Shown here: positions 36,083 through 56,260 of the stretch, in pieces
Numbering within the stretch: the stretch's first letter is position 1
How the letters are laid out: each line of letters begins with the position of its first letter
Origin: Brevibacterium antiquum
Lineage (GTDB): Bacteria; Actinomycetota; Actinomycetes; Actinomycetales; Brevibacteriaceae
NCBI RefSeq assembly: GCF_016107655.1
Contig: NZ_JABASX010000002.1
Span: 124,001 to 188,000 of the forward strand
DNA length: 64,000 nt
Reading direction: 5' to 3'
Made by a program: the position numbers and the translations under genes
The notes under the pieces: generated by a model
The model's input: only the letters and a program-made list of their open reading frames with translations
Database searches by the model: none
Told to the model about the DNA's origin: nothing

Positions 36083-36145
36083 ATCGGTTGCTGCGGACAG
36101 CATCGCAGCGCTGCGATGCCTCTGTCGGCGAGACTGCTCCCAACA

Positions 36146-36197
36146 GTTGGTAAGTTCGTCTCGATCCGGGCGCTTGGATCGCGACGAACTTACCAAC
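36146..36197 (+). terminator. 22-bp-stem hairpin after the methyltransferase
   Basis: Arms 36146-36167 and 36176-36197 pair with one mismatch and an 8-nt loop, 63 bp after the SpoU gene. It separates the ABC/SpoU unit from the ATP-grasp gene. The remaining 230 bp up to 36431 hold the presumed promoter of the ATP-grasp gene, with AT-richer sequence near 36230-36350. Confidence 0.8.
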
Positions 36198-36431
36198 CGT
36201 TCTACTTCACGTGCTCAAGCCGCGTCGTGCTGGAACACCACCACCCAGAATTCCATCCGACGGTTTCGCATTGTCATTGGGTCAGGCGTCAAAGTTCTGA
36301 GTCCCAATCTCAAGTTCGCGAGCCGAGTTCCACAACCAAGTGATACGTTCAGATGACCCTGGCTGAAAGGCGGTCCAAATAGCCCAGTTCCAGTGCCGTC
36401 AGTGCACTGACACTCTTGCGAAGGAGAACTT

Positions 36432-37496
36432 ATGCATGCTGCTCGTCCACTAAAAATCGTCATCGCCTCAGCAGGTCGCCGTGCCCACTACATTGAGTGG
36501 TTTCGCAGTGCTTTGAGTTCTCAGGGAATCAGCGGAGAGATCATCGCGATGGAGTATCGAACTACCAGCCCGACGTTCGGACTCGCGAACAGAAACATGG
36601 TTGCTCCGGCCTATAACAGCCCCGACTACAGCGATTTCATTCGAGATTGGGTACGCGCCGAGCGGCCCGACCTTTTTCTGTCGCTCAACGACTACGAGAA
36701 TCAGATTATGTCCGATGGATTAGCCGATGAGCTGCGGGAACTTGGCTGCAAGGTCGCCGCTCTATCCCCATTCGCCCAGTCAGTCGTACTCGACAAATAC
36801 CGCATGGCTGCGGTTCTCGCTGAACACGGCCTGGCCACACCCATCACTCACCTTGGCAGCCACGCAACGTTGGTCAAAGGCGAACGGCCGCAAGGTCGGT
36901 TCGTCGTGAAGCATCGCTTCGGGAGCGGGTCTAGAGGCTTGCAAGTCGCCTCAGGCTGCGATCTCGAGGAAGCCGTGACCGAGTCCGCCAGAACAGCAAT
37001 TGGAAAGCATGGCACGTTGGACGGCGGGAAGGTCGACAACGTCGTCGTACAAGAGCTGTTGCCCGGGACCGAATACGGCATCGACGGAATGTTCTCACTC
37101 GACGGGAGCGGAAGCTTGCTCGGAGTTCTCGCCCGGCGCAAAGACGTTATGCGGGACGGCGACACGGATATTGCGACCACTGTTTCAGCAGACAGGTTCG
37201 TACCGGCAATGTCGGGCCTGGGCGATCTTCTCAAACCGATCGGGCCCATCGATGTGGATTTTCGTGAAACTGCGGAAGGTCGTCCAGACATCATCGACAT
37301 CAACCCCCGTCTTGGCGGAGGCTATCCCTATTGCCATCGTGCCGGGGCTGACCTCCCGGCGGCAATAGTCAGGACTCTCGCTGGTTTGGAAGACGAACCA
37401 TCATTGTTGACATACCGTTTCGGGGTCACGACTGCACGACGAGAAGACTTTACAGTGGTGCACGAAGACGTGGACATGCCCGTAGGGAGCCGCTGA
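36432..37496 (+). CDS. ATP-grasp ligase (CarB/PylC-like), copy 1
   Basis: A 354-aa ATP-grasp protein, expected to join a carboxylate to an amine or thiol through an acyl-phosphate. The N-terminal pre-grasp segment IVIASAGRRAHYIEWFRSAL and DKYRMAAVLAEHGLATP are diagnostic. RFVVKHRFGSGSRGL is the ATP-binding loop, and VDVDFR...DIIDINPRLGGGYPYCHRAGADLP is the metal/ATP site (Glu replaced by Asp in DINPR). AGGAG at 36423 is 6 nt from the ATG. It is paralogous to 46359-47438. The substrate is unknown; no carrier protein is visible nearby. The 255 bp downstream contain a terminator. Confidence 0.8.
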   Translation: MHAARPLKIVIASAGRRAHYIEWFRSALSSQGISGEIIAMEYRTTSPTFGLANRNMVAPAYNSPDYSDFIRDWVRAERPDLFLSLNDYENQIMSDGLADELRELGCKVAALSPFAQSVVLDKYRMAAVLAEHGLATPITHLGSHATLVKGERPQGRFVVKHRFGSGSRGLQVASGCDLEEAVTESARTAIGKHGTLDGGKVDNVVVQELLPGTEYGIDGMFSLDGSGSLLGVLARRKDVMRDGDTDIATTVSADRFVPAMSGLGDLLKPIGPIDVDFRETAEGRPDIIDINPRLGGGYPYCHRAGADLPAAIVRTLAGLEDEPSLLTYRFGVTTARREDFTVVHEDVDMPVGSR

Positions 37497-37678
37497 ACTG
37501 CACTGCAGCAAGCTGACTTCTGAGCCGGGTTCGAGTAAATCGCATCTCCGTCAGCGTCGGCAGATCTGCTAGTGGACCTAACCGAGACAAAGAGCGCCCT
37601 GCTCTGGCAGCACTGGTGGTCATCGGCCGCGCTTTGGCAGCTAAACCAGTGCGACTCAGTTCTCACTGAGAATAGAAC

Positions 37679-37718
37679 GAGCGCCGGGGATACAGTCGCA
37701 ATGCAGTCCCCGGCGCTC
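37679..37718. terminator. 12-bp-stem hairpin between convergent genes
   Basis: GAGCGCCGGGGA (37679-37690) and TCCCCGGCGCTC (37707-37718) pair perfectly with a 16-nt loop. It lies between the ATP-grasp gene and the minus-strand acyl-CoA dehydrogenase operon, and probably ends both. Confidence 0.8.
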
Positions 37719-37751
37719 TATCGCTGGCTCATCTGAGCTCGTCGGCCAGCC

Positions 37752-38900
37752 TCAGTTCAGGTCGGCCGCCTGGGGCTCGATGAGCCCACCGATCTCTGCC
37801 AGCTCGGCAGTCAGCGAATCGGCATCGTCGAAGGTGCGCGAGATGACGGTCAGGCGCTTTGCGTAATGACCGATCGGGTACTCCATCGTCATGCCGATTC
37901 CGCCGTGCATCTGAATCGACTCCTGGCTGATGGTGCGAGCCGACTGATCGATGATGATCTTGGCAGCGATGACATCACGGTGGCGGTCCTTCTCGGAGCC
38001 GGCTTCCTCGTTGGTGACAGCAAGACGTGAGTACAGGGCCATGCTGCGCGCATACTCGAGGTCCGCGTAGAGGTCGGCAGCACGGTGCTGCAGGGCCTGG
38101 TTCGCACCGATCGGGGCACCGAACTGCTCACGGGTCTTGAGGTACTCGGCGGTCATGGTCAGCGAGGCTTCCATGACACCGACTGCTTCGGCCATGATCG
38201 CAGCGTTCGCAGTGTCGAGCAGCTCAGCGACGACAGCATGTGCATCGGCAGCACCGAGGCGCTGGGCCGGTGCGTTGTCGAACTTCACGCTGGCGCTTCC
38301 CTGGCCGTCGGCCTGACGGTGAGTGACGCGGGAGACTCCGGTTGCCGTCGCAGCGACCAGGAACAATCCGAGTTCGCCATTCTCCGAGGCTGTGACGATG
38401 AACTGGTCGGCGACGTCGCCGCCGAGCACGCCGTTCTTCTCGCCACTGATCGTGAAGGCACCGTCAGCGCCCGCCGAGGCGGTGGTGGACGGAGCATCGA
38501 CCGCGTAGCGCAGGCCGGGCTCGAGTGCCGCAAATGCGAGGAAGGTCTGGCCTTCGCACACGGAGGGCAGGATCTCCTGCTTCTGCTCTTCGCTGCCGGC
38601 GGCGGCGATCGCGTTGGCACCCAGCACTGCTGTGGCCAGGAACGGCTCGAGCACGAGTGAACGGCCGAAGGCTTCCAAGACCACAGCAACCTCGGCGAAG
38701 GTCATTTCTGCTCCACCGTAGTTCTCCGGGATTGCCAGGCCGAGCAGGCCCATCTCTGCGAACGCCTCCCACTTCTCGCGGGAGATGCCCTCTTCGCTGT
38801 GCAGAATGGCTTCGCGGGCTTGGGTGTCGTACTCGCTGCGCAGGTACTTGTTCAGGGTGCTGGCGAGTTCTTGCTGAATGTCGTTGAGTTCAAGATCCAT
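37752..38900 (-). CDS. Acyl-CoA dehydrogenase, subunit 2
   Basis: A 382-aa ACAD. N-terminal helices, a beta domain with GEKNGVLGGDVADQFIVTA, and a C-terminal helical bundle with QMHGGIGMTMEYPIGHYAKR (FAD and substrate region). It lies 41 bp downstream of a second ACAD and presumably forms a heteromeric flavoprotein with it, as FadE pairs do in actinobacterial steroid and fatty-acid catabolism. The substrate cannot be told. GAGGA precedes the ATG. It sits between the ATP-grasp and LuxR genes on the opposite strand. Confidence 0.87.
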   Translation of the reverse strand: MDLELNDIQQELASTLNKYLRSEYDTQAREAILHSEEGISREKWEAFAEMGLLGLAIPENYGGAEMTFAEVAVVLEAFGRSLVLEPFLATAVLGANAIAAAGSEEQKQEILPSVCEGQTFLAFAALEPGLRYAVDAPSTTASAGADGAFTISGEKNGVLGGDVADQFIVTASENGELGLFLVAATATGVSRVTHRQADGQGSASVKFDNAPAQRLGAADAHAVVAELLDTANAAIMAEAVGVMEASLTMTAEYLKTREQFGAPIGANQALQHRAADLYADLEYARSMALYSRLAVTNEEAGSEKDRHRDVIAAKIIIDQSARTISQESIQMHGGIGMTMEYPIGHYAKRLTVISRTFDDADSLTAELAEIGGLIEPQAADLN

Positions 38901-38941
38901 TGTTGTCCTCTTCTTAAGTGTTCTGGGGTCGCAGAGAGACC

Positions 38942-40135
38942 TCAGAGACCAAGCAGTGCTTTCGAGATGATTCCGCGCTGCACCTCGGACGAGCCGCCGT
39001 AGATGGTGACCTTGCGGGTGTTGAAGTACGCGGGAAGGGCGTCGACTGCTCCGAGCGGAAGGTCCGAGAGTCCCTCGCCCTGAGCGCGGTCGGTGACGAA
39101 GTCCAGGCCCTGGGGACCGAGGACGTCGACGAGCAGCTCGCTGATGTCTTCCTGCAGCTGTGAGCCCTTGAGCTTGAGCACGGAGGAGCGTGGATCCGGC
39201 TTGTCAGATCCGGCGGCCTGAGTCGAGAGGATCCGCAACTGGGTCATCTCGAGCGCGGTGAGCTCGGCTTCGATCCGAGTTAGGCGGGCGGAGAACAGCG
39301 GATCGTCGAGCAAGGTGCCGCGTGCCGTCTTCGTGACCGCAGCGTAAGCCTTGGCACGGGCCAGGTTAACCTTCGAGCCGCCGATCCGGGCGATGCCTGT
39401 TCGCTCATTACCGAGCAGGAACTTCGCGTAGGTCCATCCCTTGTTCTCTTCGCCGACGAGGTTCTCGACGGGAACCTCGACATTGTCGAAGAAGACTTCG
39501 TTGACCTCATGGCCGCCGTCGATGAGCTGGATCGGGCGAACCGTGACTCCGGGCGTCTTCATGTCGATGAGCAGGAACGAGATGCCGGCCTGCTTCTTCA
39601 CATTCGGATCGGTGCGGACCAGGTTGAACATCCAGTCGCCGTACTGGCCCAGGGTCGTCCACGTCTTCTGTCCGTTGACGATGTACTTGTCGCCGTCACG
39701 GACCGCGGAGGTCTTCAGCGATGCGAGGTCAGAGCCGGCATCGGGTTCGGAGAAGCCCTGTGACCACCAGATGTCGATATTGGCGGTGGCCGGAAGGAAG
39801 CGCTCCTTGATCTCCTGGCTGCCGAAGGTCGCGATGACCGGGCCGACCATGGAGACGTTGAAGGGCAGCGGCTGTGGAACGCAGGCCAGCTGCATCTCTT
39901 CAAGCCAGATGTGACGCTGTACAGGAGTCCAGTCCTGGCCGCCCCATTCGACGGGCCAGTTGGGTACGGCGAAACCGTGCTGATTGAGGATCCGCTGCGA
40001 AGTGACCATGTCCTCCTTGGTCAGCTCCTGGCCGGTGGCGACCTTGAAGCGCAGCTCCTCGGGGATCTCCGTGCGATAGAACTGACGCATCTTCTGAGCG
40101 AACTCGCGCTCCTCTGCATTCAGCAAGGTGTCCAT
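38942..40135 (-). CDS. Acyl-CoA dehydrogenase, subunit 1
   Basis: A 397-aa ACAD. FNVSMVGPVIATFG, WWSQGFSEPDAGSDLASL (FAD contact region), NGQKTWTT and the C-terminal YFNTRKVTIYGGSSEVQRGIISKALLGL are typical of the FadE29-like half of actinobacterial ACAD pairs. AGGAG lies 5 nt before the ATG. The upstream region carries repeated TTCGGT segments near 40157 and 40180 that could be part of a regulator site. The start of a two-gene operon with 37752. Confidence 0.88.
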   Translation of the reverse strand: MDTLLNAEEREFAQKMRQFYRTEIPEELRFKVATGQELTKEDMVTSQRILNQHGFAVPNWPVEWGGQDWTPVQRHIWLEEMQLACVPQPLPFNVSMVGPVIATFGSQEIKERFLPATANIDIWWSQGFSEPDAGSDLASLKTSAVRDGDKYIVNGQKTWTTLGQYGDWMFNLVRTDPNVKKQAGISFLLIDMKTPGVTVRPIQLIDGGHEVNEVFFDNVEVPVENLVGEENKGWTYAKFLLGNERTGIARIGGSKVNLARAKAYAAVTKTARGTLLDDPLFSARLTRIEAELTALEMTQLRILSTQAAGSDKPDPRSSVLKLKGSQLQEDISELLVDVLGPQGLDFVTDRAQGEGLSDLPLGAVDALPAYFNTRKVTIYGGSSEVQRGIISKALLGL

Positions 40136-40820
40136 GAAAACTCCTGATTGATCGTTCGGTAACTTAGCTCCAATAGTACGGTTCGGTGTTCGGGCTCACA
40201 AGTGGGGTAAGGGGTGAGCGCGACCGATGGCCGCGGAAGATCACACCGTGCGGTCGTCATCGATGATCCAGTCGTTCGAGGCGAGAGTCAGAGTGGTGCG
40301 GTTCGGGCGGGATCTTCGTGCCTGTTATCGGACATCCCTGAAGTCGTGCCTTTCTGTGACATTCGATCGTCTGGAATGTTACAACTCCTTAACATTGCGG
40401 TGCTGGAGGTCCAGTTGATCACGAAGCAGATCTAGAATCGAATGAGTACCGCCCCGTTTATCGGGAGCGATTAGCTAATCAAGAACAACCGGTTTGTCGC
40501 ATAATCGAGCGATTCCACCAAAGCACACTCGAAATGCGCTCTTTGAGAGAAGTGAACGGGATGAATCTCGTGTCCCAAGAACCTCGCACATTCAATGTCG
40601 AATTGTGTGAGACTCTCCGCCGTTTCGGCGGGAGTGTGCGCCATCGTCAGTCGGTTCCTCTGGTCCGGAGCAGTCGCCTCAGCGCCGTTGTGCACCCGGC
40701 TGCTACTGTGGCGTGCCTGCAGCGCTGCAAGCACGCATCGACGCAGTCGGCCGCTCGAGGAACGATACTCGAGCGAGCGAGCGTGTCGAAGTGAAATCGG
40801 ATACCGCCCTACGTCCATCG
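40136..40820. other. Long intergenic/regulatory region before the LuxR pair
   Basis: About 685 bp. 40370-40500 is AT-richer than the surroundings and includes GTTACAACTCCTTAACATT, a plausible promoter area. The 40561-40794 stretch may hold a small ORF (listed separately). No terminator or RNA gene is seen. If the LuxR gene starts at its distal GTG (40713), the region is shorter. Confidence 0.45.
40561..40794 (+). CDS. Possible small ORF of 77 codons
   Basis: An ATG preceded by GAACGGG opens a 77-aa frame ending 26 bp before the preferred LuxR start. The product is Arg/Ser-rich toward the end with four Cys residues and resembles nothing I know. Third-position G+C is only moderately high. It may be a spurious frame in a leader; treat as tentative. 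Confidence 0.22.
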   Translation: MNLVSQEPRTFNVELCETLRRFGGSVRHRQSVPLVRSSRLSAVVHPAATVACLQRCKHASTQSAARGTILERASVSK

Positions 40821-43421
40821 ATGAGTGCTGTCAACAGCGGCAGTCAGGCACAGGTCGCGGAGATCACCAGAAACCTGGCGAAACCCGATGTCTATGGTTC
40901 GCTGGTCATCGGTGCCTCGGGAATGGGCAAGACCACTGTCATCAATGCGGTTGCTGCGAATGTGGACCCGGAGGTGCCCGTATTCCGTTTCCGCGGCTCA
41001 AACCTGATCGCTTCCAGGAATCTGGGCATCTTCGAAGTTCTGCTCTCGTGTGAAGTCGAGGCGAGCCACGAGATCGCGCCTGGCGCCGCGCTGTCGATCA
41101 TCAGTCGGATATTCGAGCGAGAGCGCACTCCTGTTGTGATCATCGACAATGCTGATCGGGTCGATGAGCATTCCCTATCGATCGTCTCCCAATTGGCTGC
41201 CGCTGGTCGGATCAAGCTTGTGGCAGCGGCGGAGACGATCAGGCCTCCGGTTGATCTGCTGGCGGCCCTCTGGACAGCTGGCAAGGTCGCGCGCACGGAT
41301 CTTGAGGGCCTTGACGGACCGGCCATCGCAGCCGTTGCTCGGGAGCTGGGGTATGAGCTCGATGATAGGAGGATCGCCGCTTACCGGGAGAGGTCCCGGG
41401 GCAACCCCCGGATGCTGAGAAAACTCATTGTCGGCAGAACCACTAAAGTCGCTTCCCGGCGTGGGGGCGACCATCGGGCACTGTGGAATGTGCTGCCGGC
41501 TCAGAAGCGGATTCTCGAAATGATCGCCATGGCTGGGGCGCTGCCCTATGAAGCACTGCGAAGCATGTATGAGCCGGAGCTCCTCGACAGTCTGGAGGAA
41601 CGCGGAATCATCAGCATCACCAGAGGCAGGCGCGCCGAGGTGGCTGTGGTCGAACCTGCGGTCGCTCAGCACCTGCGTGACAGCGTTCAGCCCTCGCAGG
41701 GCCTGCAGCTGCTCAGGGACATCACACCTGTTCTGGAGACGACTCCCCTCGTTGGAGCTTCGCTGTTCGGGCAGGTGAGATGGACGCAGGACTGGGGCGT
41801 CCCAGTGGACTCGGTCAAGGTTCTCGGTGCTGCCATGTGGGCGAATGAACGGGGAGACTTCGCTGGCGCGATCGACGTGCTGCGTGATTCGAAATCTGAG
41901 GACCCCGAGATCCACCTCGAGCTGGCGCGTGCAGAACGCGGTCGAGGGGACACCGTGGAGGCAGAGCTGATCGTCGATCGACTGGTCTCCTCGCCCCAGG
42001 CGAGTCAGGGATCGGACAGATATCTCTCCCGACTGGCGTGCCTTGAGCTGAGATTGACCGATCCGCGTGAACCGCACACTCTGCGCACCGAATGGGTTCG
42101 TGATCGGCTGAAGAGCACTGTCGACACCGGCCGCTTGGATGTCACCCGAGCCCAGTTCGAGGTGCGCGGCGGGCGTTTGGAGGAGGGGCGGAAACTGTCC
42201 GAGCGCGTCTTCCGCGATCGCGACTGTCTGCCCCGGCACCGACAGCGTGCATGCTCGCTTCTGGGCCAGGTTGAAATAATGTGTGGCCGAATCGAGCGGG
42301 GGCTCGAGTACCTGGCTCAGGCCGAAATGATGTTCAGTCTGCCGGATACCACCAGCTTTGAGGTGGAGGACTCGGTGCCGCAGATCTTTATGGGTCGCTA
42401 TTTGGCCGGAGACTGGGACCGTGCTCGTACGACCTTACGGCGACTGGTTCCCCTGCAGGCTGACTCGGCCTCCGTCACAGCACTTGTCGATTTGTGGACC
42501 GGACACATCACTCGAGCGCAGCAGACTCTGGACAAGGCCTTGGCCGATGCGACCGAGCGTGAGGACAACCGTGCTCTCATGCAGGCTGCCCTCCGCCTGG
42601 CCGAGGGGCTTCTGCGGATGCGTGAAACTTCGACTCGGCGTGCAACGACACCGGTGTCGGGCGATCGGACGACCCACCTTCGCAGGGGCGAGCGGATTCG
42701 CAGGGGCGAACGGTCCGGCGGCAGCAATGTCGCTGATGGCACGGAACCGACGCGCGGAGTTCCCAGAGCCGATTACGATTGGTGCCTTGACTTCCTTACC
42801 GACCTGCTCGAGCTCGAGGCCGAGGCGCTGACCAATCCTGCAAAGATCGCAGACGAGATGTACGGCCTTGGTGCGGAGGCTGCGGAGCGTGGGGCCCACA
42901 CTCTGGCTGTCTACGCCTGGATGGAGGCGAGCCGGCACGGCAGTCCAGCGGCGCAGCTGAATCTGATCGATGAGGCTGAGAACGTGGACGGCGATCTTGG
43001 GCGTTTGGCGTCTGCAGTCGCCAAGGCCTGCCTCGGAGAAGACGACGGTGCAGAGATCAAAGCCGCAGATGAAGCGCTGAGCTTCGGTGCTGTCGTGATG
43101 GGCGCTGATCTGGCACGATCGGCACGTGACAGAGCTGTGCGGAACCACGATTCTGCCGCTGTCAAACATGCTCGGATCTTATTGGACTCGAGTCTGCGCG
43201 CGATCACCTTCGATGCTGGCGGTGCGAATCTGTCGGAGATACTCACCGCGATGGAGAAGCAGCTGGTGAACGGTGTGGCGGAGGGAGCCAGCAACTCGGA
43301 GCTCGGGGCTCGACTGCATCTTTCGGTGCGTACGGTGGAATGGCACCTCGGCCGACTCTATCGACGTCTGCACGTGAGCGACCGTCAAGAACTCAAGCAG
43401 ATCGCACGGAGTCTGGCGTGA
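40821..43421 (+). CDS. Large ATPase LuxR-family regulator (LAL type), first of a pair
   Basis: An 866-aa regulator. The P-loop GASGMGKT (about residues 31-38) and Walker B TPVVIIDNADRVD (about 130) form an NTPase domain. A winged/TPR-like helical middle follows, with a basic repeated linker (RRGERIRRGERS, about 620). The C-terminal LuxR HTH is NSELGARLHLSVRTVEWHLGRLYRRLHV. The start is uncertain: GTG at 40713 or 40791 would add 36 or 10 residues, but none has a clear ribosome-binding site, and the ATG at 40821 begins just before the NTPase fold. It overlaps the next LuxR gene by 4 nt. Confidence 0.82.
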   Translation: MSAVNSGSQAQVAEITRNLAKPDVYGSLVIGASGMGKTTVINAVAANVDPEVPVFRFRGSNLIASRNLGIFEVLLSCEVEASHEIAPGAALSIISRIFERERTPVVIIDNADRVDEHSLSIVSQLAAAGRIKLVAAAETIRPPVDLLAALWTAGKVARTDLEGLDGPAIAAVARELGYELDDRRIAAYRERSRGNPRMLRKLIVGRTTKVASRRGGDHRALWNVLPAQKRILEMIAMAGALPYEALRSMYEPELLDSLEERGIISITRGRRAEVAVVEPAVAQHLRDSVQPSQGLQLLRDITPVLETTPLVGASLFGQVRWTQDWGVPVDSVKVLGAAMWANERGDFAGAIDVLRDSKSEDPEIHLELARAERGRGDTVEAELIVDRLVSSPQASQGSDRYLSRLACLELRLTDPREPHTLRTEWVRDRLKSTVDTGRLDVTRAQFEVRGGRLEEGRKLSERVFRDRDCLPRHRQRACSLLGQVEIMCGRIERGLEYLAQAEMMFSLPDTTSFEVEDSVPQIFMGRYLAGDWDRARTTLRRLVPLQADSASVTALVDLWTGHITRAQQTLDKALADATEREDNRALMQAALRLAEGLLRMRETSTRRATTPVSGDRTTHLRRGERIRRGERSGGSNVADGTEPTRGVPRADYDWCLDFLTDLLELEAEALTNPAKIADEMYGLGAEAAERGAHTLAVYAWMEASRHGSPAAQLNLIDEAENVDGDLGRLASAVAKACLGEDDGAEIKAADEALSFGAVVMGADLARSARDRAVRNHDSAAVKHARILLDSSLRAITFDAGGANLSEILTAMEKQLVNGVAEGASNSELGARLHLSVRTVEWHLGRLYRRLHVSDRQELKQIARSLA
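42679..42714 (+). repeat. 18-bp tandem repeat coding an Arg/Glu linker
   Basis: TTCGCAGGGGCGAGCGGA and TTCGCAGGGGCGAACGGT follow each other (two differences). They encode duplicated RRGER units in the middle of the first paired LuxR protein. Confidence 0.6.
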
Positions 43422-46072
43422 CACGTCAACGGGCGTTCAGTCGCCCGCCGCTCTTCGGTCGCGTGGACGAGCTTCGAATCATTGAGGAATCGCTGAGTGA
43501 TTCGTCGATGGTCGGCATCCTCATCGAAGGCGATATCGGCATGGGGAAGACATGTTTGGCGAGGGAGGTGCATCGGCGCCGAGGTGGGCAGGAGCACTGG
43601 CTGCGCGCCGATCGTGTGCTCAGTGAAATTCCGTTCGGAGTCTTCGCGATGATCGTCGACCTCGATGACCCAGGTGGTCTGCCAGGGCGAGTCATATCGG
43701 CGGTGACGGGGAATTCCCAGGTGCCGGCTGTATTCGTCGACGACGCTCACTATCTCGATGAGCACAGTCTCCGCATGCTCACACAGCTCGCGGCCAACGG
43801 CACGATCAAACTGGTGGCGATGACTCGCCACTCCGTGGTCGAAGGGTTCTGGCCGTTCGCTGACCTGGTAGACGAACAGGCGCTGACGCAGATGGTGCTG
43901 GAGCCGCTCGCTCAGGAGGACCTGCGTAACGCAGTCGAATACAGTTTCGACGGGATCGCCGCACAGGGCGTGCTCGACATCGTCGATTTTCACTCGGGGC
44001 GCAATCCCGGCAAGCTGCTGGAGCTCCTCGAATACTGCCGGAGGAAGAACCGCCTGCTGTCGCGGAATGGTGTGCTGTTGCTTGACGGACTCGACATCGA
44101 TTTCGATGTACGGGCACGCGATTTCGCCCGCATCGATCTCGACCAGCATTCGACGGAGGAGAAGGAAGCTCTCGAACTTGTCGTCATGGCCGGTGAGATC
44201 GACATCGATCTGATGCTCTCGATCGGACTCGGGCCAGCAGCAGACCGCCTGGTCGACGGCGGTGAGCTGCGCATCCTCGGAGACACCGCCCGAGTCTACG
44301 TTGCACGCGAGCATCACTCGTCGGAGACGATTCGATACAGCGCCCCGATCGGCCGCAGCCGGAGGTGGTACGGCATAGTCCGCGACTACCCGGGCCATCC
44401 CAGTCGAAGGTCTCAGATGCTCAGAACGGAATGGGCACTGGGATGTGGGGTTGACGTGGACGAACGGCAGGTCATCGATGCTGCGATAACCGCGATCGAG
44501 ACAGGTGACTGGCATCGAGCTCTGCGAATCATGTCCGATGTTCCGACTGATCGGCTGAGCGCTCACGAACTCTACGAGCTGGCGAGTCTCTATTGCAACG
44601 TCGGGCAGGTGGCGCTGGGCCTGGACCTGCTTGCCTATTGTCTGCATAAGGCGTGCTGTCCGGAACTCGTCATCACCGCGGCAGTGCTCTGGGCCAACCG
44701 CCAGGTCACCCACAAGTCGGTGGCAGTTGAGGCCGCCGACTTCCCAGCGGCTCTCGACAGGGTCGCTGCACAGGAGCGAGACTGCTCCACGGATGAGACC
44801 TGCCATCACAACGGTAAGAGGCAGGATCAGACGACGAGGGGATTCGCCGCTGGGGGTCTTGACGACGCGACCGCGCGAGCCTTGCTGCAGACCGTGAATT
44901 CCGTTGTGAGCACTCATGGTCAGCCGAACAGGGAGCTGCTGCACCGGCAGGCGCTCGACGTCTCTCTGCCGGATGCGTACCGATTGGGGGCATTAGTCGT
45001 CTGCGTATCTCTCGAGCTGGAGCAGGGGCGGATTGAGCAGGCGGACGAAATTATGACCCTGGTGAAACGCGAACTCCCCGGCTTGGGGATGGGAACCGTG
45101 GTGCTCAGAATGCTCGGCGCTCGGGTGCTGATGGAGCACGGCGATCTGAGTGCCGCTCGGAGATCACTGCAGATGCCGCAGTCGAGCGATATCGCCCATA
45201 TTGCGTCTCAGAGCGGGACCAGCGACATGATGGCGGCAGAGCTTGCACTGCTCGAAGGCAACCTGGACGCGGCATTGCGATCGGCTCGGGCCGGTGTCGA
45301 GGCCCTGGAATACTGGGAGCAGCTTTCATTGCTGGCTGCGGCTCTGGGCGTGGCACAGTACGTTGCCACACTCAGCGGCGAGAGGGACTTGGCAGCGGGT
45401 TTCGATGCTCGGTTCGCCCGGTTGGCGCGCTTTGGTCTGCACCTCGAGTCCAGGCGCGCGCTGGTGTACACCCTCATCTCCCGGTGGCTGCGGACATCTG
45501 ATCCGGAGTCCGAGAGGCAGCTGCGGCAGCTGCTCGACGATGCGGAACGGGACCAGGCATACGGCCTGTCCGCGCAGATCCGCTTTCTGCTGTTCCGCCA
45601 CCTCGGGGAAGTCGATATTGAGGAGATGCGCCGTATCTCCGGATTGGGCGAGGGGCCAGCATTCCGAATCCTCGGGGCGGTGGGGGAGGCGCTGTGGACG
45701 AAAGACGCCGCGGCGCTGCTGAGGATCGCTGATGCCCACCGATCCTCTGCCCCTGACGTCGCTGCACGATGCGTGCAGATGGCCAAGGACCGCCTTCACC
45801 ACCGCGGCAGCGTACCGTTATCGCGAGGATCCTACGACCTGTCCGTGGAGTTGACGGAACGGGAGCGAGAGATCTGCGGCTTCCTCGTCAAGGGAATGTC
45901 GAACGCTGAGATAGCCGCTCTGCTCGGAGCCGCGGTGAGGACGGTGGAAGGACATGCCTATCGCCTGTATCGAAAGCTCGGTGTCACCCGGCGTCATCAG
46001 GTCGCCGAGGCTTTGGCACGACTGAACATCGAGGCTGTGGGAGCCGCAAAGCAGGAGTCCGAGAACTCCTAG
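43418..46072 (+). CDS. Large ATPase LuxR-family regulator (LAL type), second of a pair
   Basis: An 884-aa regulator. FGRVDELRIIEE leads into P-loop GDIGMGKT (about 38-45) and Walker B PAVFVDDAHYLD (about 108). A long helical repeat region follows, with two insert-like polar stretches (about residues 450-500). The C-terminal HTH (LTEREREICGFLVKGMSNAEIAALL...TVEGHAYRLYRKLGV) is clear. The GTG at 43418 overlaps the preceding stop (GTGA) with GGAG 8 nt upstream, so the two regulators are translationally coupled. Upstream starts inside the previous gene are rejected. Confidence 0.85.
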   Translation: MTRQRAFSRPPLFGRVDELRIIEESLSDSSMVGILIEGDIGMGKTCLAREVHRRRGGQEHWLRADRVLSEIPFGVFAMIVDLDDPGGLPGRVISAVTGNSQVPAVFVDDAHYLDEHSLRMLTQLAANGTIKLVAMTRHSVVEGFWPFADLVDEQALTQMVLEPLAQEDLRNAVEYSFDGIAAQGVLDIVDFHSGRNPGKLLELLEYCRRKNRLLSRNGVLLLDGLDIDFDVRARDFARIDLDQHSTEEKEALELVVMAGEIDIDLMLSIGLGPAADRLVDGGELRILGDTARVYVAREHHSSETIRYSAPIGRSRRWYGIVRDYPGHPSRRSQMLRTEWALGCGVDVDERQVIDAAITAIETGDWHRALRIMSDVPTDRLSAHELYELASLYCNVGQVALGLDLLAYCLHKACCPELVITAAVLWANRQVTHKSVAVEAADFPAALDRVAAQERDCSTDETCHHNGKRQDQTTRGFAAGGLDDATARALLQTVNSVVSTHGQPNRELLHRQALDVSLPDAYRLGALVVCVSLELEQGRIEQADEIMTLVKRELPGLGMGTVVLRMLGARVLMEHGDLSAARRSLQMPQSSDIAHIASQSGTSDMMAAELALLEGNLDAALRSARAGVEALEYWEQLSLLAAALGVAQYVATLSGERDLAAGFDARFARLARFGLHLESRRALVYTLISRWLRTSDPESERQLRQLLDDAERDQAYGLSAQIRFLLFRHLGEVDIEEMRRISGLGEGPAFRILGAVGEALWTKDAAALLRIADAHRSSAPDVAARCVQMAKDRLHHRGSVPLSRGSYDLSVELTEREREICGFLVKGMSNAEIAALLGAAVRTVEGHAYRLYRKLGVTRRHQVAEALARLNIEAVGAAKQESENS

Positions 46073-46358
46073 CCTCACACCGTTCATGAGCTCAGGTTGA
46101 TGCGGTCGAAACACGGTCGACTGACGCAGTGCGCAGACTGTTTTCGGGAAACCGCAAAGATGGCGAATTCCATTCATGAGGTAGGCGTAGTGAAACTACT
46201 ATGAGGTGGCATCGGGATGATCTGCATTGACCGCTGAAACCGGACTTAATGCGTCATTCTGAGTGAATATTCGTGTCATTGTGACAGCAATGCATTTCGG
46301 TGCGGGATAAATGTCCGGTAACTCCGATTGATCGGCACGGCGATTTCAGGAGGGCGAA
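46073..46358. other. 286-bp AT-rich intergenic region
   Basis: Separates the LuxR pair from the second ATP-grasp gene. It contains short inverted repeats GTAG-TGAAA-CTAC (near 46190) and CATTG-TGACAG-CAATG (near 46275). The segment is noticeably AT-richer than the flanking genes and likely holds the promoter and operator of the ATP-grasp gene. Confidence 0.45.
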
Positions 46359-47438
46359 TTGACAGATGCACCTGTGACGATTGTGATTGGCTCAGCAGGT
46401 CGACGTCTCTATCTCATTGATTGGTTTCGCGCCGCGTTCGACACACTCGGGCTCAGCGGGCGAATCATCGTCGCTGAGAATGACGCTTCGAGCGCTGCTG
46501 CGTCCTATGGTGACGAGACCCGATTGCTGCCGAGATACACCGACCCGGCCTATGGAGAGGAGGTCCTGCGCCTGGTTGACGAGGTCGAGCCGAGGCTCTT
46601 CCTGACGGCGAACGACTTCGAGCTGATGCAACTCCATGTGAACTCGGGAATAGCGGATGCACTGCGTGATCGTGGCGTTTTCGTTCCCGGAGTGTCTGCC
46701 GCATGGCAGGTCGGCTGCGCCGACAAGCTCCGGATGGCGCAGATGCTCGAGGACGTTGACGTCCCGACGCCGAAGACGGTGAAGGGGAGCGATCTGGACC
46801 TTCTCACAGACGTGGGGGAGAACGGCGAATTCGTGGTGAAGCACCGATTCGGCAGTCGTTCTTCCGGATTGGCGGTGGTGACCGGAGGTGATGTCGACGA
46901 GGCTGTGGTGAATTCTGCGAAGAGTGTTCCGCCGCGTGCTGATCGTACGGACCCCCGGGACGACGTCGTCGTCCAGCCGAGGATGCCGGGCAGCGAATAC
47001 GGTGTCGACATCGTCTCCAGCCTGCTGGACCCAGGCCCCCTCACCGGGGTGTTCGCACGTCGCAAGCTGCGGATGCGCGCCGGCGAGAGCGACAAAGCTG
47101 TCACAGTTGACCCCGGGCCGTTCCGGGAAGCTTCGGGAAAGATCGCTCGTGCCGCCGAACTGTCCGGCCTCATCGATGTCGACATGTTCCTTGACGATCA
47201 AGGCCGGGCTTCGGTGATCGATATCAATCCTCGGTTCGGCGGCGGATATCCGTTCGTCCATCTGGCAGGTGCCGACGTTCCGCTCTACTACGTGAGCCAG
47301 ATCTTCGGGATCCCGATCGACGAGGGATGGAATCAGTACGAGGCAGGAGTCATCTCTGCCAAATATCAGGAAACCCGGGTGACGGCCCGTGGGTCGCAGG
47401 AGATTTCCGACTCGTCCACCGCGGTGGAACACACATAG
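46359..47438 (+). CDS. ATP-grasp ligase (CarB/PylC-like), copy 2
   Basis: A 359-aa paralogue of 36432-37496. IVIGSAGRRLYLIDWFRAAF, DKLRMAQMLEDVDVPTPKT, EFVVKHRFGSRSSGLAV, and IDVDMFLDDQGRASVIDINPRFGGGYPFVHLAGADVP align segment by segment with copy 1. The metal site again reads DINPR. A TTG start at 46359 is strongly supported by AGGAGGG 5 nt upstream. A PLP decarboxylase gene follows 87 bp later, so the two likely act in one pathway. Substrate unknown. Confidence 0.83.
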   Translation: MTDAPVTIVIGSAGRRLYLIDWFRAAFDTLGLSGRIIVAENDASSAAASYGDETRLLPRYTDPAYGEEVLRLVDEVEPRLFLTANDFELMQLHVNSGIADALRDRGVFVPGVSAAWQVGCADKLRMAQMLEDVDVPTPKTVKGSDLDLLTDVGENGEFVVKHRFGSRSSGLAVVTGGDVDEAVVNSAKSVPPRADRTDPRDDVVVQPRMPGSEYGVDIVSSLLDPGPLTGVFARRKLRMRAGESDKAVTVDPGPFREASGKIARAAELSGLIDVDMFLDDQGRASVIDINPRFGGGYPFVHLAGADVPLYYVSQIFGIPIDEGWNQYEAGVISAKYQETRVTARGSQEISDSSTAVEHT

Positions 47439-47525
47439 ACGTCAAACTCGCATAGACGATGTGCGAGAGCACTGCTGCAATGACGAGATTGTTGAAGACG
47501 TTTAAACTCAATGAGGAAGGCAGCC

Positions 47526-48770
47526 ATGAGCTCCATAGAACATCCACGGATCGCCGGCCCGCCGACCCCGGCGTTTGTCATCGACGAATCTGCGTTGAAT
47601 ATTCTGGTCAATCGCTTTCGGGATGCGTTGGCAGAGCATTGGCCGAATTCTGTCATGTCATACTCCGTGAAAACGAACTCCCTGCCCTGGCTGCTGTCCT
47701 ATATGAAACGGCAGGGTGTCTGGGCAGAAGTCGTCTCCGACTCCGAATATAAGCTGGCATGCGCGGTCGGCTACACGCCCGAGCAGATCGTGTACAACGG
47801 TCCCGTGAAGAGCCGAGCGGTTCTGCGGTCTGCCCTGCGCAACGGCTCACTCACCAACTTGGACTCCAAGCGCGAAGTCAGGTGGGCAGCCGAGCTGGCA
47901 GCGGAGGACCCCAGCCTGAATGTGAGGGTCGGGCTCAGGGTCAACTGGGACCTCGACGCATTGTGTCCCGGACAGAGTACGGTGGTCGGAGACATGAGCA
48001 GGTTCGGTTTCGACTACGTCAACGGTGAATTCGAGGCAGCCATCGTGCAGTTGACCGATGCCGGGGCCAGTGTTGCGGGCCTCCACATGCACCGGAATTC
48101 CCGAAGCAACAGCCCGCAGGTATATCAGGCGGCCGCCGGCGTCGCCCGCGAGATCATCTCGACGTTCGATCTCGAGCTGGACTGGATCGATATCGGTGGT
48201 GGCTTCTTCGGAAGTCTCGATGACACTGCACTGTTCGACGACTACATTTCCTGCATCCGCGCGGAACTCGAGGGCGCAGTCGATCTCAGTCGAACTCGGC
48301 TGGTCATCGAACCCGGAGGTTCCGTGATCGCAGCCCCTGTGGAGTTTCATGCGCAGGTGCTCGACACCAAGGACATCGGACAGCGGCGTTTCGTCATCAC
48401 TAATGTGAGCAGGACCGACATCGATCCGCTCTTCCGCAAGCAGGCCCCCTACTACATCGTTACCGAGGCTGCTGCGGACACGGACCACCCCGAGCAGGTG
48501 ATCGCCGGATTCACCTGCATGGAGGACGATCGTCTGATGGTGCTGAAGGATTCTCCGAAACTCATCGAGGGAGACCGTATCGTCTTCAGGAGAGTTGGTG
48601 CGTACACCATGTCGTACGGCTCCTCGTTCATCGAGTTTCCCCCGGCAGTCTATGTTCTCCACGAGAATCATCTGACGCTGGTGCGACGCGCAGGTGACGT
48701 CGAGGACTACCTTCAGGGCAATATATGGACAGGCGGACAGCTGCAGCCCACGGGCGCTCAGCCCGAATAG
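47526..48770 (+). CDS. Fold-III PLP-dependent decarboxylase (DAP/ornithine decarboxylase-like)
   Basis: A 414-aa enzyme of the alanine-racemase-like PLP fold, removing a carboxyl group from an amino acid. SYSVKTN carries the PLP Lys (about residue 50). GLHMHRNSRSNS replaces the usual HxHxGS. DIGGGFFG binds phosphate. FTCMEDD near the C-terminus supplies the Cys and, four residues on, the Asp of the second active-site half; the intervening residues differ from CESGD (DAP) and CDGLD (ornithine). The start is set by AGGAAGG 6 nt before the ATG at 47526. It is downstream of ATP-grasp copy 2. Substrate probably non-standard. Confidence 0.8.
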   Translation: MSSIEHPRIAGPPTPAFVIDESALNILVNRFRDALAEHWPNSVMSYSVKTNSLPWLLSYMKRQGVWAEVVSDSEYKLACAVGYTPEQIVYNGPVKSRAVLRSALRNGSLTNLDSKREVRWAAELAAEDPSLNVRVGLRVNWDLDALCPGQSTVVGDMSRFGFDYVNGEFEAAIVQLTDAGASVAGLHMHRNSRSNSPQVYQAAAGVAREIISTFDLELDWIDIGGGFFGSLDDTALFDDYISCIRAELEGAVDLSRTRLVIEPGGSVIAAPVEFHAQVLDTKDIGQRRFVITNVSRTDIDPLFRKQAPYYIVTEAAADTDHPEQVIAGFTCMEDDRLMVLKDSPKLIEGDRIVFRRVGAYTMSYGSSFIEFPPAVYVLHENHLTLVRRAGDVEDYLQGNIWTGGQLQPTGAQPE

Positions 48771-49011
48771 GTCACGGCAACGCAATCGCGCCCTCAGACG
48801 TTGCCCAGACTGCGCTCACCGCCGTTCAATTCGCCTGAGTAGCGGAACCAGTGCTGTCTCCATCGTGACTGAGTACTGACCGGAATATGTCCGGGCATGA
48901 CCACCTGTCTGTGTGCTCTCGACGACGGAATCATGAGGGCATGGACAACAACACGCCGCTGCGCGCGCAGCTGAGGAACGACGATGAATCAGGAACTGAG
49001 CGGAACACATC

Positions 49012-51696
49012 ATGCATACGCTGATCCGCCGTCGCGAGCTTGATCAGCTGCGCAACCTGCTCGATCGTCACAGCGCGGCCGCGATCATCAGCCCACCTGG
49101 CCTGGGCGGTGACGAGATGCTCATGGCATTGGAAGCTGATTCGACCGTCCCGATCATCCGAGTTCCCAACGGCCAGGCGGAGTTCTCTCGGACCTATGCG
49201 GGCTTGGAGATCGTTCTCGCCTCGCTGCGCACCCTCAAGCTCGGGGACTTCGAATCGACGGAGCTGGAGAGTCGGCTGAAGGCAGAGAATTCCGACAGCC
49301 CGGAATCGGTGCGGGAGATTGCCGACGAGGTCACCCGGCTGATCGGCAGCATGGAATCGGGACAGGGCGTTCTGGTCATCGTGCCGGCAGCCGATGAGAT
49401 GGATCGGCCCTCGCAGCTCGTCCTCAGTCACATGCTGCGACGCATGGCAGGGCACAGGCTGAAGATCGCAGTCACAACCGGTGCGCTGTCTCCGACCAGT
49501 CCGCTGGCCGGAGTCCCCAGCGTGGAGCTGCGATATCTGGACGAGATCCGAATGCACGAGTTGGCGGAAGAGCTGACATCCGGACGCGTTACCGCCGCAG
49601 TCGCCGCTGCGGCAGTGCGGACCGCCTCGGGTCGGCCGTCTGCTCTGCGTCAGCTGCTCGAACGGCTTCCTTCGAACCAGTTGGAGGGATCGCAGGCACT
49701 GGACATGCCGTTGCATCTGGAGCCGAACGCTGACGCGATGATCTTGGGTGCCAAGAACAGACTCGGCGAAGAGGCCGATGCGCTGCTCGACCTCATGTCC
49801 TTGGCTCCGCTGTCTCCGCGGCCCACAGTTCTCGGAGCGTCGAGGGAAGCACAGGAATGGTTCTCGGAACTCGAATTCCGGGGCGCCGTCGAGAAAGACG
49901 GTGTGTACTGCCGCTTCTCTGAGGAACTGGCTCGTGCCTGCAGGCACCGGACGTTGAGCGTCGATGAGCGTCTGGCAGGGCACTCGCTGCTCGCGCAGAG
50001 GTGCGAGGAAGGTTATCCCGAACTTCACCACTGGCATCGGTCGTTCATCGACGCCACGGATGAGACCCCATGCCAGCTGCTCTCCGATGCCTGTGCGCTG
50101 GTTTCGGAGGGGCTGGATTGGGCCGGAATCGAGTTCGCCGAACGAGCTCTCGCTCTCAGCATGGAACTCGGACCGGTCTCCACGCAGCTGAACGATCTCG
50201 CTGCGCGGCTGATCGACCGAGGGCAGATCGACTTCGCACTGCGCTACCTCACCTACGCCGCTCGAAGCACAGACGTCAGAGTCCTCGTTCGAGCTCGCAT
50301 GCTGCGTGTGTGGGCCGAATTCCTTGTTCACCAGTCGGTTCCGTTGCGTCTGCGCAACCAGTGGAGTCGCAGCGAAGTCGCTGCGGCGCCCGCCGAGGTG
50401 GCCCACCTGCAGTTGGTCATCGCCTTGTGCCATGCGCTGAGGAGAGAAACCGCCGAGGCGCAGGAGCTGTTGGACAATGCAAGCAGCCTGAGCGCTCACT
50501 TCGACGATCGATCGCTGCGCCTACACCGTTCTTTGGACGTTCTGCTCGAATGTGGACGAGGCCATGACGCCCGTGCCGTGGAGGAATTCCGGGACCTCGA
50601 CTCCAGTGAAGTCTCAGACCCGGTCTGTCTGCTTCTGCTGTCCATGGGTCTGATGGCGGCTGAGAACTACGGCGCGGCCCTCGCAACGTTGGACTGTCTG
50701 GACGCGCGTGGGGCACGGGAGACTATCTGGGACACACAGTCCAAGTGTGTGCGTGCCGAGGTCGCGATTCGCCGAGGCGAAATCGGTCTGGCCATCGCGC
50801 TCATCGACAGGTGTGCGTCTCAGGCCACCGCCAGTGGAATGATTCGGCGGGATCGTCAGCTGCTGCTGCGGTGCTGGAGTCTTCTGGCGCAAGGACGTGC
50901 CAGTGATGCGGAGACAGTGGAAGCTGCGCTGACGGCGCATGCCATGGCCTCCCAGAACTTCAGTCTGCTGGCTGAGCTCAATGCGATGCAGGGCAACTAC
51001 CTGCTGCGCATGGGGCTCGCCGCCGAGGCGGTACGCCATCTGCATCGCTGCGAAGAGTTGGCTCTGAGCGAGCTCAACCCCAATGTCATTCGCTACGAAC
51101 CTGATCTCATCGAGGCGCTGATCGCGACAGGGCGTCGAGAGCATGCGGGAATGCTGGTTCGTGTCTTCCACGGCAGAGTCGAGAGGGCACCGTCGCGCTG
51201 GGCGGAACTGGCACTTGAGCGGTCTCGTATTCTTCTGCTCCCAGAAGACGCGGGGATCGAAGCCATGGGCAGGCTGCTCGGCTCGTGGCGTCCTGGGGAC
51301 TCCCAATTCGACAAGGGAGTGACACTCCTGGTGATGGCTGAACGGCTTGCCGATTCTGGTGCTCGTGCAGGTGCCGCAGAGCGAGCCAGCCTGGCGGTAG
51401 GGATCTTTCGCGAAGTCGGTTCTGACCATCTGGCCACCGTCGCCCGACCCGAAATTACAGCAGCTCGGGAGGAGCCGGCACGAAACAGTCTGCTGGAACG
51501 TTTGAGCGCTGATGAGCGGGCAGTCGTCGAGCTGGTGCGGGAAGGACTGAAGAATCGGGAGATCGCCCTACGGATATTCGTCTCGCTGCGCACGGTTGAA
51601 CTTCGGCTGACCTCTGTGTACCGCAAGTTGGACGTCACGTCTCGGACCGGACTCATCGCCCGGCTGGCGAATGGTGCCGGCGCCCCCGTGGCCTGA
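49012..51696 (+). CDS. Large LuxR-family regulator with degenerate P-loop
   Basis: An 894-aa protein with the same layout as the LuxR pair. The P-loop position reads SPPGLGGDE (about residues 27-35), with Gly in place of Lys and Asp in place of Thr. The Walker B position reads VLVIVPAADEMD without the two Asp, so ATP binding is probably lost. Long TPR-like helices follow. The C-terminal HTH is LSADERAVVELVREGLKNREIALRIF...RTVELRLTSVYRKLDV. The ATG has GAGCGGAA about 8 nt upstream. It is immediately upstream of the polysaccharide genes. The 241 bp before it show no other gene. Confidence 0.83.
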   Translation: MHTLIRRRELDQLRNLLDRHSAAAIISPPGLGGDEMLMALEADSTVPIIRVPNGQAEFSRTYAGLEIVLASLRTLKLGDFESTELESRLKAENSDSPESVREIADEVTRLIGSMESGQGVLVIVPAADEMDRPSQLVLSHMLRRMAGHRLKIAVTTGALSPTSPLAGVPSVELRYLDEIRMHELAEELTSGRVTAAVAAAAVRTASGRPSALRQLLERLPSNQLEGSQALDMPLHLEPNADAMILGAKNRLGEEADALLDLMSLAPLSPRPTVLGASREAQEWFSELEFRGAVEKDGVYCRFSEELARACRHRTLSVDERLAGHSLLAQRCEEGYPELHHWHRSFIDATDETPCQLLSDACALVSEGLDWAGIEFAERALALSMELGPVSTQLNDLAARLIDRGQIDFALRYLTYAARSTDVRVLVRARMLRVWAEFLVHQSVPLRLRNQWSRSEVAAAPAEVAHLQLVIALCHALRRETAEAQELLDNASSLSAHFDDRSLRLHRSLDVLLECGRGHDARAVEEFRDLDSSEVSDPVCLLLLSMGLMAAENYGAALATLDCLDARGARETIWDTQSKCVRAEVAIRRGEIGLAIALIDRCASQATASGMIRRDRQLLLRCWSLLAQGRASDAETVEAALTAHAMASQNFSLLAELNAMQGNYLLRMGLAAEAVRHLHRCEELALSELNPNVIRYEPDLIEALIATGRREHAGMLVRVFHGRVERAPSRWAELALERSRILLLPEDAGIEAMGRLLGSWRPGDSQFDKGVTLLVMAERLADSGARAGAAERASLAVGIFREVGSDHLATVARPEITAAREEPARNSLLERLSADERAVVELVREGLKNREIALRIFVSLRTVELRLTSVYRKLDVTSRTGLIARLANGAGAPVA

Positions 51697-51812: not shown

Positions 51813-51914
51813 ATGTTGACAACCGAAACGAGCTTCAGCTTTGAGCCATTCCGCCAGGGACCCGGCCCAGCTCCGGTCGGGACCGTCCTACCGGCCCGGG
51901 GAGCAGCAAGATGA
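51813..51914 (+). CDS. 33-codon upstream ORF coupled to the sugar transferase
   Basis: A 33-aa reading frame with ATG at 51813, GAGGAG about 9 nt upstream, and a TGA that overlaps the sugar-transferase start (ATGA at 51911-51914). The product begins MLTTETSFSFEPF and is then Gly/Pro-rich with a basic end (PARGAAR). It has no membrane helix. The 4-nt overlap suggests translational coupling: a leader peptide controlling initiation of the polysaccharide operon. It may also be a tiny functional peptide. It was identified directly from the bases; no homologue is known to me. Confidence 0.5.
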   Translation: MLTTETSFSFEPFRQGPGPAPVGTVLPARGAAR

Positions 51915-53038
51915 ACGGATATCACTTCGTCAAGAGGGTGCTTGATGTTCTCGCCGCTCTGGTCTTTCTGATCGTGCTCTCGCCGGTTCTCATCGTCGTC
52001 TGCCTCCTGATTCTCCTCTTTCTCGGAGCGCCGATCTTCTTCCACCAGGAGAGAGTGACAAAAGGCGAAAGGGTCTTCCAGCTGTGGAAATTCCGCAGTA
52101 TGCGCAACCCTGATCCCGAGCGGGGACTCGTCTCCGATAGTCAGAGGATGACACGCTTCGGTCGATTGCTGCGGTCGAGCAGCTTGGATGAATTGCCGAG
52201 TCTGTGGAACGTGCTGCGCGGAGACATGAGTCTGATCGGCCCGCGGCCATTGCCCACCCGCTATCTGCCCCACTACTCGGACCAGCAGCGTCGTCGGCAC
52301 CAAGTGCGTGGAGGGCTGAGCGGACTGGCGCAGATCAGCGGACGCAATCGTGTGCGCTGGGACGACAGATTCGATCTTGACGTCGAATACGTGGATACGG
52401 TGAGTTTCGGCCTCGATCTGCGCATACTCATGAGCACAATCAGAATCGTGCTCCGTGCGGATGGAATCAGTCAGGACGGCGAGGTGACAGCGGAGAACTT
52501 CGGCGGCACATTGAAATCCGAGCTGTTGGTGTTTGATCAGCGAAATCGGGCAGAGACCATCACGACATGGTCGGTGAGCAGCTCCGACGGTCACGAGATC
52601 GGATACTGCGAAATTACGGTCATGAGCGAGCACGCTCTCCTGATCCGATTCGATGACTGCACGGAATCAGATCCGGCCATCGAGATTCGACGAGAGGTCG
52701 TCAGACTGCTGACGAACCGTACGCGGGCGACCGAGGCCGAATTCGCCGTCTGCGTGGTGCGCGCCGACAGTGTGGACCGTTCGGTGCTGACCGAAGCCGG
52801 ATTCAAAGAAATCGCCGACCCGGGGGAACAGCTGAAATTCGGACACCTTGCTTCAGCCGACCGGATTCTTGCCGTCTGCAGGCTGTGGCCGGACGAGTCG
52901 GCCGATGCCGGTGCTGATGCGCATGCCGATACCGACGCCGGTCGGAGCCGACTCATTTCGTATGGTCGGGTGCCGGACGAGGCAGGTCGAGGCGAATCGG
53001 CAATGCGGAGGCTGCCGAAGGCGGACGCAAGCCAATGA
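51911..53038 (+). CDS. PglC-type sugar transferase with C-terminal extension
   Basis: A 375-aa enzyme. Residues 1-200 are a complete bacterial sugar transferase (phosphoglycosyl transferase): a hydrophobic re-entrant N-terminal helix, LWKFRSM, LRRSSLDELPSLWNVL-type catalytic Asp-Glu region, GDMSLIGPRPL and VRGGLSGLAQI. It starts the lipid-linked repeat by moving a sugar phosphate to undecaprenyl phosphate. Residues about 205-330 are extra, with helix-strand patterns and VLTEAGFKEI resembling a GNAT acetyltransferase end, but degenerate. An Asp/Ala-rich tail follows. GGGGAGC precedes the ATG, which overlaps the small ORF stop. Confidence 0.85.
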   Translation: MNGYHFVKRVLDVLAALVFLIVLSPVLIVVCLLILLFLGAPIFFHQERVTKGERVFQLWKFRSMRNPDPERGLVSDSQRMTRFGRLLRSSSLDELPSLWNVLRGDMSLIGPRPLPTRYLPHYSDQQRRRHQVRGGLSGLAQISGRNRVRWDDRFDLDVEYVDTVSFGLDLRILMSTIRIVLRADGISQDGEVTAENFGGTLKSELLVFDQRNRAETITTWSVSSSDGHEIGYCEITVMSEHALLIRFDDCTESDPAIEIRREVVRLLTNRTRATEAEFAVCVVRADSVDRSVLTEAGFKEIADPGEQLKFGHLASADRILAVCRLWPDESADAGADAHADTDAGRSRLISYGRVPDEAGRGESAMRRLPKADASQ

Positions 53039-53658: not shown

Positions 53659-53836
53659 GAATGCGGCTCTGGTCGAAATCCCCAGGGGTGAGTCAGTGGG
53701 TGACGAACGCCTCCGCAGGGCCGTTGCGGGACGCCGCAAGCTCGGTGACGCGACCGACCGTTCTGCCGTCGCCGACAGTACAGTTGGGGCCAAACATCAT
53801 CGCAGCAGTTTCCCTTCAGACTGGATTGGACCCGAG

Positions 53837-56210: not shown

Positions 56211-56260
56211 GACTCGATCACACCGTCTGAGACTCAATGACGTTATCTGGACTCAATCAC
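56211..56260. repeat. Three 11-bp near-repeats at the end of wzx
   Basis: GACTCGATCAC (56211), GACTCAATGAC (56231) and GACTCAATCAC (56250) are spaced 20 and 19 bp apart. They span the gap between the phosphatase and the converging flippase gene. Meaning unknown; no strong hairpin. Confidence 0.5.

Follow-up and report, generated by a model that had tools for sequence, protein, structure and literature searches.

An ATP-grasp ligase and a fold-III decarboxylase recur as a pair beside polysaccharide genes in Actinomycetota and Bacillota

In butirosin biosynthesis, the ATP-grasp ligase of the ligase–decarboxylase pair is BtrJ. The substrate of its fold-III partner BtrK, which it decarboxylates, is glutamate attached to the carrier BtrI, and in a docking model of N-citrylornithine decarboxylase FigC, residues R387 and H357 hold the citryl group (PMC7857480). 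ATP-grasp enzymes also act in amino-sugar pathways: PglB2 of Neisseria, which makes a glyceramido-acetamido trideoxyhexose, is a phosphoglycosyl transferase fused to an ATP-grasp that takes the place of the PglB acetyltransferase (PMC11130364). Here, we analyze a 64,000-nucleotide stretch of Brevibacterium antiquum (contig NZ_JABASX010000002.1; G000:C16:124001-188000 in our numbering), called the window below, in which two ATP-grasp ligase genes and a gene for a fold-III pyridoxal 5′-phosphate (PLP) decarboxylase lie beside an exopolysaccharide (EPS) locus.

The open reading frames (ORFs) of the two ATP-grasp genes, copy 1 (36432..37496) and copy 2 (46359..47438), of the decarboxylase (47511..48770) and of three large LuxR-type genes were found at their stated positions, all on the + strand, and matches in Pfam and NCBIfam bear out the family assignments. 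The conserved unit is one ligase plus the decarboxylase; it recurs in two phyla and is linked to polysaccharide genes. A scan of GTDB genomes returned 31 loci, which are spread over Brevibacterium, Nesterenkonia, Brachybacterium, Gulosibacter, Granulicoccus, Enteractinococcus, Corynebacterium, Yaniella, [Zimmermannella] and several Bacillota. Neighbors were counted in the 26 loci where each flank reached 9 kb or more (L032, L037, L051, L053 and L057, with a shorter flank, were left out). A ligase of the copy-1/copy-2 family is present in 25 of the 26, no more than 300 bp from the decarboxylase in 21; a PglC-like phosphoglycosyl transferase is present in 22 and a DegT sugar aminotransferase in 13. 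Five loci of the window type have their DegT about 17 kb away, outside the counted stretch. The original prediction had tied an ATP-grasp–decarboxylase pair to polysaccharide genes, and the genome neighborhoods agree with it; homologues occurring singly and away from EPS genes are not the pattern found.

Whole-genome tests covered 57 genomes of Brevibacterium and, for the 18 loci from outside this genus, the genomes of 15 (L039, L051 and L057 were left out, the last two being on short contigs). The ligase occurs in all 21 decarboxylase-bearing Brevibacterium, in 15 of 15 other genomes, and in 2 of the 36 Brevibacterium that lack the decarboxylase. DegT is found in 35 of 36 decarboxylase genomes (21/21 Brevibacterium, 14/15 others). 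The window genome has a bacillosamine-type module, with a PglF-like dehydratase, DegT and the PglC-like transferase in one locus, and such a module is seen in other loci too. The DegT of the window genome, just past the window edge, scores 302 bits and is of LegC/PseC type; the next best DegT in the genome scores 38.8 bits.

The decarboxylase (Orn_Arg_deC_N, 105 bits) has the Schiff-base Lys, HxH, GGG, EPG and catalytic Cys of the alanine-racemase fold (fold III). It is not the diaminopimelate decarboxylase (DapDC) of this genome. Against NCBIfam TIGR01048 (lysA), it scores 151.5 bits, below the cut-off of 297.9, and the genome has a separate LysA (L001) on another contig, with 423.3 bits and the DapDC motifs, which the window enzyme lacks. 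These three distal-group motifs of DapDC, EPGR, R-x-x-L-Y and C-E-S, are replaced in 32/32 aligned members of the subfamily by EPG followed by G/A/T/I, by D/N-P, and by C-M, respectively; the active site does, as had been claimed, differ from that of DapDC. The subfamily signature is EPGG, DPLFR and CMEDD. The two motifs originally singled out, HRNSRSNS and CMEDD, are both in the window protein. CMEDD is present in 30 of the 32 members, and exact HRNSRSNS is confined to the window protein, most Actinomycetota members having HRNS...S and those of Bacillota HC.. or HV../HN... The nearest solved structure, by sequence and by fold, is FigC (115.7 bits, vs 63 bits for BtrK); against the N-citrylornithine decarboxylase FslC/FigC model NF041039, the window enzyme scores 123.5 bits, and the cut-off is 500. 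Among the best 120 of 991 database matches listed, relatives carry general names alone (hypothetical protein, diaminopimelate decarboxylase, pyridoxal-dependent decarboxylase). A third fold-III decarboxylase of the genome (L002, G000:C16:443562-444365) scores 225.9 bits against lysA, below the cut-off, and has the motif C-F-A-G-D, unlike LysA and unlike the window enzyme.

The two ligases were predicted to be alignable paralogs, and they share 41% identity over most of their length. Both are PylC-like/CarB-like, with PylC-like_N and ATP-grasp (ATPgrasp_Ter, ATP-grasp_3) domains above the Pfam cut-offs. With each copy left out of the reference rows in turn, copy 1 keeps 22 of the 26 columns that are invariant in the other 23 aligned ligases, and copy 2 keeps 22 of 23. 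In a tree built from 50 ligase sequences, which represent 38 genomes, copy 1 falls in one group, type B (support 98/96), and copy 2 in another, type A (93/99). This tree comprises 50 of the 51 matched places, a short piece of a broken Corynebacterium lubricantis gene being left out; an earlier tree of 46 rows dropped loci repeating a genome and frames longer than 600 or shorter than 250 aa. The separate tree types, and the lack of copy 1 in sister genomes, rule out the two ligases as a single conserved tandem pair.

The occurrence of these genes is nested, type B within decarboxylase and decarboxylase within ligase. A non-B ligase is present in 36/36 decarboxylase genomes tested. Type B is present in 12 of them (broken in one, C. 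lubricantis), and the other 24 have no type-B match, so that two ligases are not needed. Type B was found in none of the 36 Brevibacterium without the decarboxylase (E ≤ 1e-30); its absence without a decarboxylase was tested in Brevibacterium only, because the other genomes were picked for having one. Measured between match edges, the gap from type B to the decarboxylase is 6–163 bp in 10 of the 12 genomes. It is about 10 kb in the window genome, and in C. lubricantis the nearest piece is 232 bp away. In that species, the type-B gene by the decarboxylase is broken into two pieces, with about 4.7 kb between them (L144, G065:C13:78001-90000; pieces at C13:79658-79933 and 84658-85410). Non-B ligases adjoin DegT in several genomes (at 17 bp in C. 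lubricantis and 26 bp in C. pacaense) and the decarboxylase in the window type; in Brevibacterium G001 and G028, a non-B ligase lies by DegT and there is no decarboxylase. The G001 ligase (L124, G001:C5:110904-112367; 272.8 bits) is divergent and possibly uses another acid.

Copy 1 looks like a one-gene gain in this strain, judging from alignment and base composition. The 1.67 kb that hold it (36083..37749, no strand assigned) have no match in the sister Brevibacterium stretches L083, L085, L086 and L089, where 214 to 409 bp separate the aligned flanks of copy 1. The GC content of copy 1 is 57.7%, vs 62.8% for the window, and each of the 10 other genomes of the window type has just one ligase match.

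It is tempting to propose that the ligase and decarboxylase furnish a 4-amino sugar of the locus polysaccharide with a decarboxylated amino-acid side chain, a reading to which we give about an even chance of being right. Its substrates, step order and product we infer as follows. The PglF-like dehydratase and the DegT aminotransferase would make a uridine diphosphate (UDP)-4-amino-4,6-dideoxy-sugar. The type-A ligase, replacing the acetyltransferase PglD, would then join the distal carboxyl of an amino acid (e.g., glutamate, aspartate) to the 4-amine; the UDP-4-amino-sugar as acceptor is predicted from linkage and co-occurrence with DegT, PglF and PglC. The DapDC-derived decarboxylase would next strip the α-carboxyl of the amide-bound residue, leaving an ω-aminoacyl group, like γ-aminobutyric acid (GABA) or β-alanyl, with a free amine. 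Where present, the type-B ligase, or FemAB/GNAT-like neighbors in other species, would acylate this new amine. Finally, the PglC-like transferase would transfer the sugar phosphate to undecaprenyl phosphate for polymerization by the Wzz/EpsG machinery. The neighborhood and the nested occurrence suggest that ligase A acts first, the decarboxylase next and ligase B last. A more specific version, in which the UDP-amino-sugar itself serves as the carrier, type A loads glutamate or its kin on the 4-amine, a GABA-like amine is formed in place, and type B extends or caps it, is possible, though we would sooner bet against it than for it. PglD itself (Pfam PglD_N in a PglD-sized frame) was found in 1 of 19 genomes, a figure for one domain family that leaves room for other acetyltransferases, and the sole PglD_N match of the window genome is in a 688-aa frame. 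No acyl carrier protein was found among the scanned window and locus proteins, which were part of the ORFs, with ORFs under 70 aa not called.

Several observations weigh against this proposal. The main counterpoint is the C-terminal extension of the PglC-like protein of Actinomycetota, weakly GNAT-like in two Nesterenkonia homologues, L039 and L040 (E 0.004–0.007), because it could be a 4-N-acetyltransferase, which would leave the ligase another job. PglF is in 8 of the 26 loci, as counted in the flanks and not genome-wide. DegT is common anyway, occurring in 21 of the 36 Brevibacterium without the decarboxylase; it is missing from Gulosibacter G062, unlinked, on another contig, in Brevibacterium G055, and less LegC-like in L052 and L056. 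In Granulicoccus (L042, G063), 113 kb separate the ligase from the decarboxylase. The tree placement of the G001 ligase is weak (81/11), and the choice of glutamate or aspartate, with coupling by the side-chain carboxyl, is guesswork modeled on butirosin. Lastly, the structure prediction is of a monomer without ligand, whereas the active site sits at the dimer interface.

The same end product could arise in the reverse order, the decarboxylase first making a free amine or ω-amino acid that the ligase then couples to the amino sugar. Gene content and linkage are compatible with either order, and the canonical fold-III decarboxylases, DapDC and ornithine decarboxylase, act on free amino acids. 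However, the distal-group residues of DapDC, a free-substrate enzyme, are replaced in the window decarboxylase. Moreover, the nearest structural relative works on an amide-bound residue (PMC7857480). The ligase without decarboxylase in G001 and G028 is what would be expected if the ligase acts first. We consider the reversed order unlikely.

It is also conceivable that the GNAT-like extension of PglC acetylates the 4-amine and that ligase and decarboxylase modify a different sugar or position. The weak matches in L039 and L040 fit this, as do the FemAB and Acetyltransf_6 genes near other loci. However, eight loci of the Bacillota group (L048–L054, L056) have a PglC of 212–223 aa without any extension, and the ligase and decarboxylase still lie beside it; the extension of the window protein, taken alone, matches nothing in Pfam or NCBIfam. 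The explanation is improbable. More improbable still is that the decarboxylase yields a di- or polyamine, which the ATP-grasp then attaches as an amide to a uronic-acid carboxyl in the precursor of the polysaccharide. Five non-Actinomycetota loci (L048, L049, L052, L053 and L056) do have a member of cluster c16, whose scanned member belongs to the UDP-glucose/GDP-mannose dehydrogenase family, but the Actinomycetota loci have no c16 member, in a comparison that did not look for other dehydrogenases, and the partner found is DegT instead. The original prediction of a small amino-acid-derived signal, sensed by the three LuxR proteins and coupled to EPS production, is very improbable: the LuxR genes surround the pair in window-type Brevibacterium, and the large LuxR-type cluster c18 occurs in four further Brevibacterium loci, but 21 of 26 loci lack both LuxA and LuxB, 20 lack LuxC, and homologues of all three lie by PglF in G028 (L075), which has no decarboxylase. 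The context points to modification of a sugar, and nothing points to a diffusible signal.

The LuxR genes themselves encode proteins with GerE domains, of 902 aa (40713..43421, with an AAA ATPase), 910 aa (43340..46072, overlapping the preceding gene by 82 bp) and 894 aa (49012..51696). With LuxA and LuxB homologues in 5 of the 26 loci and LuxC in 6, they are ruled out as parts of the core cassette, contrary to what was first thought; they look like lineage-specific regulators of the EPS locus. The scanned member of c18 also has a GerE domain.

The remaining genes of the locus are ordinary EPS machinery. On the + strand are the PglC-like transferase (Bac_transf, 51911..53038), extended at its C terminus by about 190 aa, a low-molecular-weight tyrosine phosphatase (53035..53658), a fusion of a Wzz chain-length determinant with an AAA/ParA-type domain (53636..55483), a second such phosphatase (55480..56169), a second Wzz-AAA protein (57790..59196) and an EpsG-family membrane protein (59193..60287). 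A family 2 glycosyltransferase (60353..61573) and a group 1 glycosyltransferase (61386..62456) are on the − strand. The locus runs past the right window edge in overlapping frames: the PglF/CapD-like nucleotide-sugar 4,6-dehydratase (62705..64000, +) has its start alone in the window (whole frame L071:3705-5714) and is followed by DegT (L071:5711-6844), an LCP glycopolymer transferase (L071:6841-7851) and a fourth large LuxR-type gene of 749 aa (L071:7848-10097). A promoter scan found 2, with 1.0 expected (sd 1.0).

Other features of the window and of related loci deserve mention. A 461-aa protein without Pfam match (56257-57642, − strand) has relatives in 8 of the 31 loci (E ≤ 1e-10), in Brevibacterium and both Nesterenkonia. 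Between copy 1 and the rest of the cassette, an acyl-CoA dehydrogenase pair (37752-40135) resembles the pimeloyl-CoA dehydrogenase PimC/PimD (506.8 and 299.4 bits, both under the NCBIfam cut-offs); it was rejected as a core part, since matches above 600 bits occur only beside window-type Brevibacterium loci. In Lacrimispora, a TupA-like ATP-grasp and a class III aminotransferase lie directly upstream of PglC and the decarboxylase (L054:7134-9333), and a further decarboxylase match, weaker than the first, lies in this genome at G073:C28:37407. FemAB or Acetyltransf_6 genes near the cassette (L033:7389-8594, L052:5305-6231, L056:3471-4397 and L038:4922-8300) could acylate the same amines.

Our search of the open-licence literature, which did not extend to papers outside it, found no paper describing this combination of ligase, decarboxylase and polysaccharide genes. 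The parts are known chemistry in an arrangement that we did not find described. If right, the proposal would have this decarboxylase group work on a sugar nucleotide, for which we found no description either. It would name a function for a decarboxylase family that spans two phyla, and would predict that surface polysaccharides in Actinomycetota and Bacillota bear an ω-aminoacyl amide, adding positive charge to the cell surface. Should ligation, decarboxylation and a second ligation follow one another as outlined, cationic or zwitterionic surface polysaccharides would be made in these phyla without a carrier protein.

Compared with LysA, the window decarboxylase shares the fold, the PLP site and the positions of the catalytic Lys, Cys and Tyr, but falls below the LysA cut-off and has the motif replacements common to its subfamily. 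With FigC/FslC, the closest solved structure, it shares C-M at the catalytic loop and the lack of R-x-x-L-Y; however, R387 and H357 of FigC align with Y369 and D339 (sequence alignment anchored at K63), and the gene is in a sugar locus, not a siderophore one. Among related systems, the Pyl ATP-grasp of UDP-yelosamine in Bacillus cereus is described under a title that names no decarboxylase. PglB2 is alike in that an ATP-grasp stands in for an acetyltransferase in an amino-sugar pathway. It differs in the group transferred, glyceramido rather than aminoacyl, in being a fusion, in having no decarboxylase named, and in serving protein glycosylation, not EPS. The butirosin system is similar in having an ATP-grasp ligase and a fold-III decarboxylase in series. 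The differences are that no carrier protein was noted in the loci studied here, where the scan of small ORFs was not exhaustive, that BtrK is related only distantly, and that the context here is EPS rather than an aminoglycoside. If the proposal holds, it suggests that the ATP-grasp and decarboxylase logic of an antibiotic pathway has a parallel in envelope chemistry, with a sugar nucleotide replacing the carrier protein of butirosin, and the two-ligase loci would fit its scheme of load, decarboxylate and cap.

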